Source: Piscinibacter sp.
GTDB lineage: Bacteria; Pseudomonadota; Gammaproteobacteria; Burkholderiales; Burkholderiaceae_C
NCBI GenBank assembly: GCA_017983795.1
Contig: JAGOAS010000004.1
Location: 1 to 64,000, forward strand
Direction: 5' to 3'
Length of the DNA stretch: 64,000 bases
Positions 1-64,000 of the stretch are shown here, in pieces. Under the pieces are notes generated by a model. It had not been told where the DNA came from and ran no database searches. It worked only from the letters and a program-made list of their open reading frames with translations. A program made the translations under genes and the position numbers. Position 1 is the first letter of the stretch, and the number at the start of each line of letters is the position of its first letter.

Positions 1-914
<914 letters not shown>

Positions 915-927
915 GGCGAGGCTGTCC

Positions 928-1584
<657 letters not shown>

Positions 1585-60375: not shown

Positions 60376-60451
60376 GGCCAAGTAGCTCAGTTGGTAGAGC
60401 AGCGGATTGAAAATCCGCGTGTCGGTGGTTCGATTCCGCCCTTGGCCACCA
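60376..60451 (+). tRNA. tRNA-Phe (GAA)
   Basis: 76-base tRNA. The acceptor stem GGCCAAG (60376-60382) pairs with CTTGGCC (60441-60447). The anticodon arm CGGATTGAAAATCCG gives anticodon GAA, and the T-loop GTTCGATTC is canonical. CCA is encoded (60449-60451). Accessory genes begin directly downstream, so it is a candidate integration site. Confidence 0.97.
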
Positions 60452-60492: not shown

Positions 60493-61803
60493 TCATTTTT
60501 CGGCCAGGAAGCGCGCCGCCTCGCTCCTCATGCCGGCCGAGATGCTCTCCCAGGTGTGGGCGGGGAAGTCCTTCGGCAGCCGTCGCTCCAGCCGGGCGAG
60601 TGCGCTGTCGACGCTCGCAACAAGCTCGATCATCGCCGCCCATACCGGTGCCCCGCCGTGCCTGGCCGCCAGTTGCCGCCAGTGGCGCGCCTGGATCGTG
60701 TGGAACAGGTAGTGCGCGTTCTTCGAGCGCACGGCCATCGCCAGCCCCGCCTTGCGCGGCCGGAACTGATTGGCGCCATCGCCGTAGTAGGGCCATATCG
60801 ACAGCACGTCGTAGAGCGGCGTCACGCGATAGGTATCGCCCCGATCGATGTGGATGGAGAAGTTCTTGGCGTGCCCGTCTGTGGCGGCCAGCAGCACGAA
60901 GGCGAGCTGCGTGAGCAGGAAGAGGGTCGTATCCGCCCGGTCGGCACTGCCTTGCAGCAGCTGCAGGCACTTCTGCATGCCGGGGCCGCCGCCTTGTTCG
61001 TACTTCCGGTCCGGCCCGACGCCGAGCGCCTGACAGAAGTCTTCCTGGGGCAATCGTGCGATCCACGTGCCCTTGTCCATCCACTCGCGGTCGAAGCGTT
61101 CGACGATCAGCACGGTCTGGTCGCCGAAGGTCTCCATCGACGTGGAGGCGACGGGCAGCCCGAGCTCCGCGACGATCTGCGCGCACAGCCACTCGTTCTG
61201 GACCGAGTCCGACGCATCGACCCGCCTGGAGCCGCCGATGAGGCCCAGCGGCAGCTTGATGATGTGCGTGGTGGGCGTGGCCCCATGCGGCCGGCACCAC
61301 TTGCCCTTCCACCGGGTGAGCGCGGTCTTCTCCTGGGCACCGGCGATGGAGATGCGGAACGGGTCGTCGTCGTGGATCGAGCCGGGCTCGGTGTCCGACG
61401 GCACGGCCTGCAGCAGCTCGACGATCTGCTCCTCGCTCAGCGGATCGCAGTCGATGCGATTCCAACCCTTCGGGCTGACGCCCTCGGGCAGCAGTTGCAC
61501 GGCGCCGACGCAGTCGCGGCCGATGGCCTCCAGCAGCTCGAAGATCTCGCTCGAGCGCAGGCCGAAGCGCCGGCGCAGCCGCGAGCGGATCCTGTCGTTG
61601 TCCGGCAGGAGATTGTCGAAGTAGTTGCGGACTTCCTGGCCCTTGAGCTCCAGCGACCCGCTGATGGGCAAGGAGAGCGAAAGCGAGCGCCGACGCGGCG
61701 ACTCCAGCCAGGAGGCCTCATAGCGGAAGGCGTGTGAGTTTCGATCGACGAGCCAGGTGCCGACCAGCTCGCCGTTCATCCAGGCCTTGAGCGACTGGCT
61801 CAC
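60493..61803 (-). CDS. hipA: HipA-family toxin kinase
   Basis: 436-residue serine/threonine kinase of a type II toxin-antitoxin pair. In E. coli HipA phosphorylates glutamyl-tRNA synthetase and induces persistence. The HipA N-terminal domain (MNGELVGTWLVDRNSHAFRY), the ISIAGAQEKTAL glycine-rich segment, and the catalytic/metal motif AATDGHAKNFSIH are intact. The GTG at 61803 overlaps the hipB stop (GTGA), so translation is coupled; GTG 61806 is one codon earlier. The target here is unknown. Confidence 0.93.
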   Translation of the reverse strand: MSQSLKAWMNGELVGTWLVDRNSHAFRYEASWLESPRRRSLSLSLPISGSLELKGQEVRNYFDNLLPDNDRIRSRLRRRFGLRSSEIFELLEAIGRDCVGAVQLLPEGVSPKGWNRIDCDPLSEEQIVELLQAVPSDTEPGSIHDDDPFRISIAGAQEKTALTRWKGKWCRPHGATPTTHIIKLPLGLIGGSRRVDASDSVQNEWLCAQIVAELGLPVASTSMETFGDQTVLIVERFDREWMDKGTWIARLPQEDFCQALGVGPDRKYEQGGGPGMQKCLQLLQGSADRADTTLFLLTQLAFVLLAATDGHAKNFSIHIDRGDTYRVTPLYDVLSIWPYYGDGANQFRPRKAGLAMAVRSKNAHYLFHTIQARHWRQLAARHGGAPVWAAMIELVASVDSALARLERRLPKDFPAHTWESISAGMRSEAARFLAEK

Positions 61804-62105
61804 CACGAGCCCTTCCTGGGGCGGGCCGCGAGGGTTCGCCTCGAGGCCTTGGCCTCAGGGGCGCGGGTGGCGGCCGGTGCGGCCGCTGCCTCCTGCAGAG
61901 TCAGCGAGACACCCAGCACCGACAGCAACTTCATCAACTGCTCGAAGTTGACCAGCCCCGGGTTCGCTTCGATCTCCGCGATCCGGGCCTGGCTGACACC
62001 GATGAGTGCGCCGAGCTGGGCCTGCGTCAGGCCATGCCGCTTTCTCAACGCCCGCAGATGCTGGCGGAGTTGATTCGGGAAGCGGACGGGGAAGGCGTCG
62101 GCCAT
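61800..62105 (-). CDS. hipB: HipB-like XRE antitoxin
   Basis: 101-residue helix-turn-helix antitoxin that binds its own operator and neutralises HipA. The HTH spans about residues 14-65 (LRALRKRHGLTQAQLGALIG, SQARIAEIEANPG), with a basic, Ala-rich tail. The start is ATG 62105; an in-frame ATG at 62114 lies inside the -10 box and cannot be used from that promoter. Confidence 0.9.
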   Translation of the reverse strand: MADAFPVRFPNQLRQHLRALRKRHGLTQAQLGALIGVSQARIAEIEANPGLVNFEQLMKLLSVLGVSLTLQEAAAAPAATRAPEAKASRRTLAARPRKGSW

Positions 62106-62112
62106 GGCGCAC

Positions 62113-62142
62113 ATTATAAGTCGTGGCCTGTGCCTGCAACAA
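62113..62142 (-). promoter_or_regulatory. hipBA promoter
   Basis: Minus-strand TTGTTG (-35, 62142-62137), 18-base spacer, perfect TATAAT (-10, 62118-62113). The ATG of hipB is seven bases after the -10 box, so transcription should begin at or next to the start codon and give a leaderless mRNA. Confidence 0.75.
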
Positions 62143-62421: not shown

Positions 62422-64000
62422 ATGAGCGACAACGTCGAGTACTACCGACAGTTCGCTGCCGAGTTCTTTCGCACCACAGTCGCCGTCGACATGACGGCGC
62501 TTCGGCAGCGGTTTCTCGCTGGCATCCCTGCCGGTGCTCGCATCCTTGACGCAGGCTGCGGCTCGGGACGGGACGCCAAGGCGTTCGCCGAACAGGGGTT
62601 CGAGGTCACCGCGTTCGACGCCACGCCCGAGCTTGCCGCCCTAGCCACAGAGCATTGCGGCTTTCCAGTCAGCGTCCGCCGATTCGAGGATGTCGCGGAG
62701 ACTTCCGCCTATGACGGGATCTGGTGTTGCGCGAGCCTGCTCCATGTCCCGGTCTCCGAGATGCACGACGCGCTGTCGCGGCTTTGGGCCGCACTGGCGC
62801 CGGGCGGCACGCTCTACGTGAGCCTCAAGCACGGCCGAGGCGAGCGACTGCACAACGGGCGGCGCTTCACGGACGCCGACGAAGAGACGATCCGGACCTG
62901 GTTCAGGCCTTTCGCCGAAGTACGCGGCGTAGAGCTCTGGCTGACACGAGATCAGCGCCCCGAGCGCGACGAGGTATGGACCAACGCGCTCATCACGAAG
63001 GAACCGTCGAGCGGCCGGCGACTCGTCACCGGCGAGACTGATCACTTCCTGCCACACCTCTCGGCTGCGATCGCAAGCGCCACGGAAGTCGAACTGGCCG
63101 TCGCCTTCATCAAGACTACGGGGTTGCGGCTACTGCTGCCTGACCTGCAGGCTGCCCTCGCACCGGAGTCGAAGCGTCGTGTCCGTGTCCTGACCAGCGA
63201 CTATCTGGACATCACCGACCCTGAAGCACTGCGCCTGCTACTGCTGCTGCGCGACCAGGGTGCCGACGTGCGCGTCTTCGTGACGCAGGGCAGCAGCTTC
63301 CACCTGAAGGCGTACATCTTCGCCGTCACGAACGATGACCAGCTAGTCAAGGGTACGGCCTTCATCGGGTCGAGCAACATCAGCCGCCAGGCCCTGCAAG
63401 AAGGTCTGGAGTGGAACTATCGTGTCGTCTACCCAGGCGACCTCGGCTTCTTGGAGGCGCGCGACCGCTTCGAGGCGCTCTTCGCCCATACCCGGACCGT
63501 CCCGCTGTCGGATGCCTGGATCGAAGCGTACGAGCAGCGTCGGCTACCGCCGCCGCGGGCCGTCGCGCCTGGCAGTCAGGAGCAGGAGGCCCCGCCGGTG
63601 CCCAACGCCATTCAGGTGGCGGCGCTGACGGCGCTTGAGGAGACGCGCGAGGAAGGCTTCCGGCGCGGCCTCGTGGTTTTGGCAACAGGTTTGGGGAAGA
63701 CCTGGCTGGCCGCGTTCGATGCTTCTCGAATTGGCGCACGGCGGGTGCTGTTCGTTGCACACCGGGAAGAGATCCTCGATCAGGCCGCTGCGACGTTCCT
63801 GCGCATCTGGCCGCGGGCGAGAGTCGGGTTCTACACAGGTCGCGCTCGCGACGCCGAGGTCCAGGTACTCTGCGCGTCGGTGCAGACGATCGGGAAGTCC
63901 GAGCATCTGGAGCGCTTCTCGCCGCAGCACTTCGACTATGTCGTGGTCGACGAATTCCACCATGCAGCGGCCACAACGTACCGCCGACTGTTAGCGCACT
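62422..64000 (+). CDS. Methyltransferase-PLD nuclease-SF2 helicase fusion (3' end outside window)
   Basis: A single uninterrupted frame of 526 codons that runs off the window. Residues 1-190 are a class I SAM methyltransferase (ILDAGCGSGRDAKAFAEQGF, APGGTLYVSLKHG) without a DNA-methylase NPPY motif. Residues about 195-385 match a PLD-like nuclease: H294xK296 in SSFHLKAYIF and GSSNISRQALQEGLEWNYRV, lacking the usual Asp of HKD. From about 400 an SF2 helicase begins, with Walker A Lys426 (VVLATGLGKTWLAAF) and DEFH at 510-513 (DYVVVDEFHHA). PLD-SF2 proteins, often with a C-terminal DUF3427, occur in restriction or defence islands; the N-terminal methyltransferase is unusual. The AT-richer codon use and its position after tRNA-Phe and hipBA suggest transfer. 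Confidence 0.86.
   Translation, partial: MSDNVEYYRQFAAEFFRTTVAVDMTALRQRFLAGIPAGARILDAGCGSGRDAKAFAEQGFEVTAFDATPELAALATEHCGFPVSVRRFEDVAETSAYDGIWCCASLLHVPVSEMHDALSRLWAALAPGGTLYVSLKHGRGERLHNGRRFTDADEETIRTWFRPFAEVRGVELWLTRDQRPERDEVWTNALITKEPSSGRRLVTGETDHFLPHLSAAIASATEVELAVAFIKTTGLRLLLPDLQAALAPESKRRVRVLTSDYLDITDPEALRLLLLLRDQGADVRVFVTQGSSFHLKAYIFAVTNDDQLVKGTAFIGSSNISRQALQEGLEWNYRVVYPGDLGFLEARDRFEALFAHTRTVPLSDAWIEAYEQRRLPPPRAVAPGSQEQEAPPVPNAIQVAALTALEETREEGFRRGLVVLATGLGKTWLAAFDASRIGARRVLFVAHREEILDQAAATFLRIWPRARVGFYTGRARDAEVQVLCASVQTIGKSEHLERFSPQHFDYVVVDEFHHAAATTYRRLLAH

Follow-up and report, generated by a model that had tools for sequence, protein, structure and literature searches.

This report concerns a gene of Piscinibacter sp. 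that begins within the first 64,000 nucleotides of contig JAGOAS010000004.1 (the window; G000:C43:1-64000 of a contig of 206,001 bases, in a genome of 4.24 Mb) and whose product is best explained as a SauUSI-type restriction core carrying an accessory module made of a methyltransferase and an S24-like domain. We assign this reading a probability of roughly 0.62, a figure that covers the core and its accessory module and not the exact role of the methyltransferase. The gene runs from 62422 to 66258 on the forward strand and encodes 1278 amino acids; the end of the window cuts the frame, and the same contig carries the remainder down to the stop codon at 66256-66258. The original prediction, made from the window alone, was that one open frame in 62422-64000 joins a methyltransferase, a phospholipase D (PLD)-like nuclease and a superfamily 2 (SF2) helicase. 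This fusion is borne out, but three domains are an incomplete description, as an S24 domain and the C-terminal domains add to them: past position 64000 the expected Helicase_C and DUF3427 domains were found, together with the unforeseen S24 domain. By Pfam the whole protein contains five recognised domains plus a coupler, in the order class I methyltransferase, PLD nuclease, SF2 ATPase, coupler, Peptidase_S24-like domain and DUF3427/SRA domain (Table 1). Another in-frame ATG occurs at 62104, but the alignment with homologues begins at the ATG at 62422.

The architecture is conserved well beyond this genome. In an alignment of the Piscinibacter protein with those of 27 other loci (57-74% identical), the motifs D(A/V)GCGSGRD, SFHxKAY, GSSNIS, GLGKT, DEFHH and QQxGRGLR are kept in all 28 sequences. 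The possibility that a sequencing or assembly error fused neighbouring genes, which had been named as a potential refutation, draws some plausibility from the minority of lineages in which the methyltransferase and the PLD-helicase are separate adjacent genes. Its probability is nevertheless negligible, because the fused frame recurs at these 27 loci in separate assemblies and forms one supported fusion clade, so that a joining artefact is ruled out.

The identity of the core follows from several comparisons. The whole protein matches the PADLOC family mREase_IV, type IV methyl-directed restriction enzymes, with an E-value of 8.6e-117, and the closest solved structure by sequence is that of SauUSI (PDB 7clg; E 6.6e-89, aligned by HMMER over 216-837 and 1143-1260), in agreement with the earlier proposal of a restriction-type PLD-helicase. 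SauUSI (overview in PMC3874153) is an ATP-driven, modification-dependent type IV restriction enzyme; according to PMC7913695, its N-terminal PLD domain has an HxK(x4)E motif at 119-126 and is joined to an SF2 ATPase, to a coupler and to a recognition domain of SRA type. The fused protein has the same elements in a single chain. Its PLD catalytic motif is intact, with H294, K296 and N319 present in 28 of 28 sequences and aligned to H119/K121 of SauUSI, and its SF2 ATPase retains Walker A, DExH and motif VI and is followed by the coupler. The C-terminal SRA-type domain, in which DUF3427 is detected in 27 of the 28 sequences (that of L055 stops short of it), aligns to the target recognition domain of SauUSI; DUF3427 is predicted to bind modified DNA in the part of PMC7159879 consulted. 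Asp858, which contacts the base in SauUSI, and the stacking Trp868 correspond to D1199 and W1209 and are kept in all 27 rows that have a letter there, which suggests that base flipping is likely retained; in the same 27 rows the pocket residues Phe841/Ile842 are replaced by Leu/Val. What distinguishes the fused protein from SauUSI is the added N-terminal methyltransferase, the S24 domain inserted between coupler and SRA, and a histidine in place of Tyr831. As judged from these alignments, the PLD-SF2-coupler-SRA chassis is that of SauUSI, a known kind, and the proposal of a wholly undescribed machine is not supported; the function with the best support for the core is restriction in the manner of SauUSI. 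Among the 20 PADLOC families matching the protein at E ≤0.01 there was no Mko model of the Mokosh system. A search for C5 DNA methylases (PF00145) gave no match in the Piscinibacter genome, and the control search was positive in 10 of 14 genomes; a nuclease reading 5-methylcytosine (m5C) would therefore be expected to spare its own host.

The N-terminal domain is supported as a methyltransferase of the small-molecule or peptide type, and not of the DNA methylase type, by family models and by structure prediction, as had been anticipated from its motifs. Its AlphaFold2 model (pLDDT 95) has as top Foldseek match RPA2492 (PDB 3e23; TM 0.92, 33% identity), followed by small-molecule and peptide methyltransferases such as toxoflavin N1-methyltransferase and NTMT1, and the only family models matching the N-terminus are small-molecule, peptide and generic class I ones. 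Neither these matches nor the nearest structures include a DNA methylase domain such as would define a type IIG or ISP enzyme. The structural matches, the acidity of the domain (net charge -7) and its shortness (~196 residues, too short for a target recognition domain) all speak against a DNA methylase, and no result here points to the cap-like or nucleotide substrate that had also been suggested. RPA2492, whose entry names no function, shares the class I fold and aligns in the S-adenosylmethionine (SAM) motif and in the LLHVP and YxSxK regions; the HMMER alignment ends at 165 of 196, however, and leaves unmatched the W-x-T-x-D-x-R-P / W-x-N sequence, the C-terminal signature of the restriction-linked methyltransferases. 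The PADLOC model mad2 of the MADS system matches the region with its positions 284-414 of 492 (E 2.2e-14), a partial similarity of generic class I kind, and the matches reported for the protein include no further MADS model; no other PADLOC model matched the methyltransferase part in the three members scanned. In type ISP and IIG enzymes the methyltransferase is a DNA methylase with target recognition. These enzymes (LlaGI/LlaBIII and MmeI, which are compared to SauUSI in the discussion of PMC7913695) are like the fused protein in combining nuclease, methyltransferase and, in type ISP, ATPase in one chain, and differ from it in the type of methyltransferase.

The character of the domain bears on two alternative explanations of its role. 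In the first, the methyltransferase would be the modification half of a pair resembling restriction-modification systems, marking a host component (a DNA end, a nucleotide or a protein) so that the nuclease spares the cell. The pattern of one methyltransferase family with exchangeable nucleases, encoded by genes that often abut or overlap, is indeed that of restriction-modification; however, a domain of ~196 residues without a target recognition domain, with an acidic small-molecule or peptide fold, is not what such a role would call for, and a nuclease with an SRA-type domain should cut DNA that is modified and spare DNA that is not (PMC7913695). We consider this explanation unlikely. In the second, the domain would act as a gauge that binds SAM, with turnover unneeded, and that releases the nuclease once a phage destroys or drains the SAM pool. 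Some phages encode SAM-degrading enzymes. The near invariance of the SAM-binding residues D43-D51 and D66 agrees with such a gauge, and independence from the partner suits a shared sensor. H108, K136, R147, W173, D177, R179 and W186 are also conserved, however, and may form a substrate pocket, a placement that we infer; a pure gauge would not need them, and its probability is lower still than that of a modification half.

The second addition to the core is the S24 domain, detected by Pfam in all 28 aligned fusions. It resembles the S24 domains of LexA and UmuD in its G-x-S-M serine and its sheet pattern, and differs from them in lacking a helix-turn-helix (HTH), in being embedded in nucleases and in carrying arginine where the catalytic lysine would be. 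Ser1052 is invariant and Arg1100 is arginine in 28 of 28 sequences; the placement of R1100 at the lysine position comes from an hhalign comparison with an HTH-S24 repressor from locus L139, at a probability of 59%, and at that probability the Ser-Lys dyad of self-cleaving S24 peptidases is not preserved. Because the serine is kept and the lysine replaced, the domain may be a sensing or docking module that does not cleave. The assignment to S24 rests on Pfam, hhalign and conservation; the structure model of the S24-SRA part is poor (mean pLDDT 57.5), and PDB sequences gave weak UmuD matches alone (best E 0.091).

The history of the fusion was reconstructed from its distribution. At 1e-30, 26 of 300 genomes of the order match the protein, its own included, and one other, G284, does so from end to end (72%). 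A scan of genome contigs gave 43 loci, mostly of Burkholderiales-type betaproteobacteria, the others belonging to Marinobacter, Microbulbifer, Thiohalomonas, Chromatiaceae and a few metagenome bins of other names. In Thiohalomonas, Chromatiaceae and some others a separate methyltransferase gene lies just upstream of the PLD-helicase gene; the two overlap in Lamprocystis (L075), and in Pseudoalteromonas (L031) they abut in one frame with a stop between them. In a maximum likelihood tree of 58 rows, built on the PLD-SF2 part and drawn from the midpoint, the methyltransferase-linked SauUSI-like rows (30 fused, seven split and one with another methyltransferase) form one clade (support 98/97), in which the fused rows form a nested clade (97/96). 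All 29 other fused rows have the S24 domain, as do the six complete split pairs and L162; it was found in none of the 20 SauUSI-like rows without an adjacent methyltransferase gene, mostly loci with 1.5 kb flanks. Methyltransferase and S24 domain appear to have arrived together on one branch, and the trees fit a single gain of methyltransferase linkage, initially as separate neighbouring genes, and a single fusion afterwards. A phage origin of the fused gene was rejected: the 10 loci obtained in one scan of viral contigs all match the helicase part alone, and no record of the phage collection covers 80% of the query. Two copies are interrupted next to or by transposase genes, namely L033 on the Polaromonas plasmid pW11NP2, where the match ends at residue 578, and L032 of Aeromonas caviae KAM479.

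The methyltransferase family is not confined to PLD-helicases, a variety of partners that the original prediction did not foresee, as family members also lie beside HNH nuclease genes and a restriction-type helicase gene. A methyltransferase profile run on 398 genomes of the phylum gave 51 matches at 1e-30, of which 10 score at least 188 bits and 41 at most 149. Nine of the high scorers come from other genomes. Seven of these have a recognised nuclease as fusion partner or neighbour (PLD-helicase-S24 in two cases, HNH in three, HNH-S24 in one and the full fusion in one); L139, the eighth, adjoins the gene of a restriction-type helicase with S24 at its end and no recognised nuclease domain, and the ninth (L141) has neither next door. 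By comparison, among the matches listed (25 of 37 Pfam families, and some sequences that were read), no recognised nuclease lies beside any of eight readable low scorers, from 11 of the 41 loci fetched, three of which (L144, L145 and L147) were lost as the simple gene caller did not call the methyltransferase. The S24 profile occurs in seven of the 398 genomes, at eight places, each with a class I methyltransferase fused or adjacent, which in G314 belongs to another subfamily. On plasmids (45 records with methyltransferase matches, 12 opened by hand choice and three more reached through the whole-protein search), an HNH gene adjoins the methyltransferase gene in seven of 10 full-length cases at 41-53% identity (L093, L094, L096-L100); it is not the next neighbour in L092, L095 and L101, nor in either of two more distant relatives. 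These HNH pairs, for which no description was found in the open-access literature, are like the fused gene in having the same methyltransferase family in neighbouring or overlapping genes and unlike it in nuclease fold.

The clearest exchange is found in Pseudoalteromonas, where strains CuT4-3 (L031) and HL-AS1/HL-AS2 (L093, L094) have the same flanks around a different nuclease gene. The left flank is 88-90% identical over ~1.7 kb and the methyltransferase 82%, the right flank has short shared stretches (78-90% over 40-213 bases), and between them lies a gene for a PLD-helicase-S24 protein in the first strain and for an unrelated HNH protein in the other two. Exchange is also apparent in a methyltransferase tree built without L023 and with L135 scored as HNH: the HNH label needs seven changes, and well-supported branches force at least five of these; the fused methyltransferases stand on one side of a branch with support 97/97. 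In a first tree, with L023 labelled HNH, there were nine changes (at least seven forced) and the fused rows were split. L023 was dropped as an HNH-only pair, as its methyltransferase runs into a contig end with a sequence that we take to be adapter; the cut frame is probably an assembly artefact in that genome. Partner exchange and a single fusion still hold with L139 treated as a helicase and L023 excluded.

Because the methyltransferase and the S24 domain stay while the nuclease changes, they look like shared control elements. By homology to SauUSI, the SRA domain would flip a modified base out of invading DNA, the SF2 ATPase would translocate and paired PLD active sites would cut both strands, cleavage chemistry and base reading both being taken from what is known of SauUSI; the fused protein is accordingly predicted to restrict phage or plasmid DNA. 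The methyltransferase would use SAM to switch nuclease activity on or off; the S24 domain, which has the serine and lacks the lysine, would sense or dock without cleaving. Both would be recurring parts of a wider module with an exchangeable effector, whether PLD-helicase, HNH nuclease or restriction-type helicase. Restraint or licensing of the nuclease is put first among the roles of the methyltransferase, ahead of SAM sensing and of nucleotide clean-up, as a tentative choice with the odds still against it. A broader proposal falls somewhat short of an even chance: the fusion would belong to an undescribed class of bacterial immune systems in which a constant SAM-dependent module, the restriction-linked methyltransferase and often a non-cleaving S24 domain, holds the rule separating self from phage, or infected from healthy, and in which PLD-helicases with or without an SRA reader, HNH nucleases and helicase-S24 proteins are plug-in effectors.

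In the clean-up explanation, the accessory enzymes would process modified nucleotides from shredded DNA, with methyltransferase, HIT and NUDIX proteins as alternative partners of SauUSI-like nucleases. In its favour, a HIT domain replaces the methyltransferase in the fused protein of L005, a NUDIX gene lies between the SauUSI-like and methyltransferase genes of L034, and MutT homologues adjoin SauUSI homologues according to a figure legend of PMC7641849. HNH cutters paired with the same methyltransferase would not alone release mononucleotides, however, and there is just one HIT and one NUDIX case here, which makes clean-up about as improbable as the SAM gauge. The protein of L005 (1090-4692 in G179) has, at the S24 position, a different, unrecognised insert. 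The stretch of L034 (4267-9504), on the human faecal 'phage' contig MT836554.1, encodes a SauUSI-like PLD-helicase-SRA protein, the NUDIX hydrolase, a methyltransferase of the same family and an HNH protein; it may be bacterial or mobile DNA and not part of a phage core. On MT836124.1 (L035, 3106-10027) a gene for a GmrSD N-terminal domain, a methyltransferase gene of the same family, a ResIII helicase gene and a subtilase gene lie in a row.

Several observations weigh against a SauUSI-type core with an accessory control module. Tyr831, which is positioned to contact the methyl group in SauUSI (PMC7913695), is replaced by histidine in every one of the 27 rows that can be scored there, and the enzyme may therefore read a base other than m5C. 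Five split pairs (L031, L070, L071, L138 and L140; Pfam was run on L071) have no SRA, their chains ending at S24, and modified-base reading cannot therefore cover the entire methyltransferase-linked group. No S24 domain was found in the insertion sequence-interrupted pair L032 or in the contig-cut L075, and L034, scored as lacking an adjacent methyltransferase, has one further downstream. HNH partners are mostly without S24, which is present at one of 13 loci (L023 excluded), and L141, L092, L095, L101 and the distant L102 and L103 have methyltransferase homologues without a nuclease next door. A nuclease seen by eye at the N-terminus of the L139 helicase was rejected, having no Pfam support and no PDB match at E ≤1. 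Housekeeping genes such as gyrB and dnaN are among the neighbours of fused loci. Finally, no assay result for a methyltransferase-bearing member was found in the open-access literature. The parts of that literature consulted, with subscription papers and preprints outside the scope, gave no account of a methyltransferase or S24 domain in SauUSI-like enzymes either, and both additions to the core appear undescribed there. If the preferred reading is true, a SAM-dependent layer of control has been added to well-known restriction enzymes that limit gene transfer, and the methyltransferase family could serve as a marker for uncovering many methyltransferase-nuclease pairs. Through the natural swap seen at one locus, the contribution of a conserved methyltransferase to unrelated nucleases could be studied cleanly, and the job of a LexA-like fold without its lysine inside a restriction enzyme is a further question raised.

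The fused gene lies on a variable island at tRNA-Phe, following the tRNA gene and a divergent hipBA pair (Table 1). The ntrX-tRNA-Phe site is found in eight of eight genomes of the genus (two of them <90% complete), and the whole fused gene in one of the eight, its own. In G672 (L186, G672:C1:403000-417600) the tRNA-Phe island contains a tyrosine integrase gene, hipBA and a copy of the gene whose match ends near residue 303; the fused gene is absent from G675 and G673, which do have hipBA (broken in G673), and the remaining four congeners have no copy. A function in DNA repair or as a housekeeping helicase-nuclease, one of the alternatives in the original prediction, could appeal to the weak matches of RadD and XPB models to the ATPase. 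This distribution on a variable island, the strong mREase_IV match and scores far below the cut-offs (102.3 of 720 bits for the NCBIfam RadD equivalog) make it very improbable.

Table 1. Features of the fused gene and its neighbours (positions in the contig; the window ends at 64000).
Feature	Positions	Strand	Residues	Pfam score (bits)	Remarks
tRNA-Phe	60376..60451	+			apparent attachment site of the variable island
HipA-like kinase gene	60493..61806	-			neighbour on the tRNA-Phe island
HipB-like HTH gene	61800..62114	-			divergent neighbour of the fused gene
N-terminal class I SAM methyltransferase domain	62422..63009	+	1-196		DAGCGSGRD 43-51, D66, H108, K136, W173/D177/R179/W186
PLD-type nuclease domain	63019..63546	+	~200-375		H294, K296, GSSN 316-319
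SF2 ATPase, part inside the window	63589..64000	+			Walker A GLGKT 423-427, DEFHH 510-514
SF2 ATPase, whole	to 64641	+	~390-740		motif VI 707-714, past the window
Coupler	~64642-65418	+	741-999		past the window
S24-like domain	65419-65835	+	1000-1138		Ser1052; Arg1100 at the catalytic Lys position
DUF3427/SRA-type domain	65848-66255	+	1143-1278		D1199, W1209; H1171 where SauUSI has Tyr831
Methyltransf_25			41-129	58.6	
PLDc_2			248-335	28.4	cut-off 27
ResIII			394-541	122.3	
Helicase_C			618-714	49.0	
Peptidase_S24			1012-1130	31.7	cut-off 23.3
DUF3427			1142-1263	76.0	cut-off 27.7

HipBA is treated as a co-resident of the island. Close relatives of it occur at tRNA-Phe in three congeners, and its candidacy as part of the system was rejected, as it stays there in two congeners without the fused gene and in one with a broken copy; at the homologue loci scanned, hip matches were limited to L033 (HipA-like, 24%) and L072 (HipB-like, 37%). 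In none of the four congeners fetched does the downstream VOC gene adjoin ntrX or tRNA-Phe. Near 22 fused or split homologues (114 of 123 open reading frames scanned, nine short, overlapping or distal ones having been omitted by hand), the matches listed (25 of 117 Pfam and 25 of 70 PADLOC families) include at least six Fic and at least five HNH proteins, a CBASS-type cyclase, a Lamassu-type LmuB and a Mokosh-like helicase. The defence surroundings that had been predicted are thus seen at several relatives; these counts, made without a matched background, are suggestive only. HNH and HKD nucleases are also mentioned near BREX in the part of PMC12839542 consulted. In G506, the helicase-S24 gene paired with the methyltransferase (L139/L163) is cut inside S24, the remainder of which lies ~37.5 kb away near an smpB-like gene; genes of the stretch fetched look phage-like by eye. 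Lastly, an HNH restriction-type gene of one family occurs near the fused gene in five of the 22 loci (L046, L050, L051, L058 and L063), directly upstream of it in L046 and L063, and an HNH gene that looks similar in sequence by eye lies upstream of the methyltransferase gene in L023.

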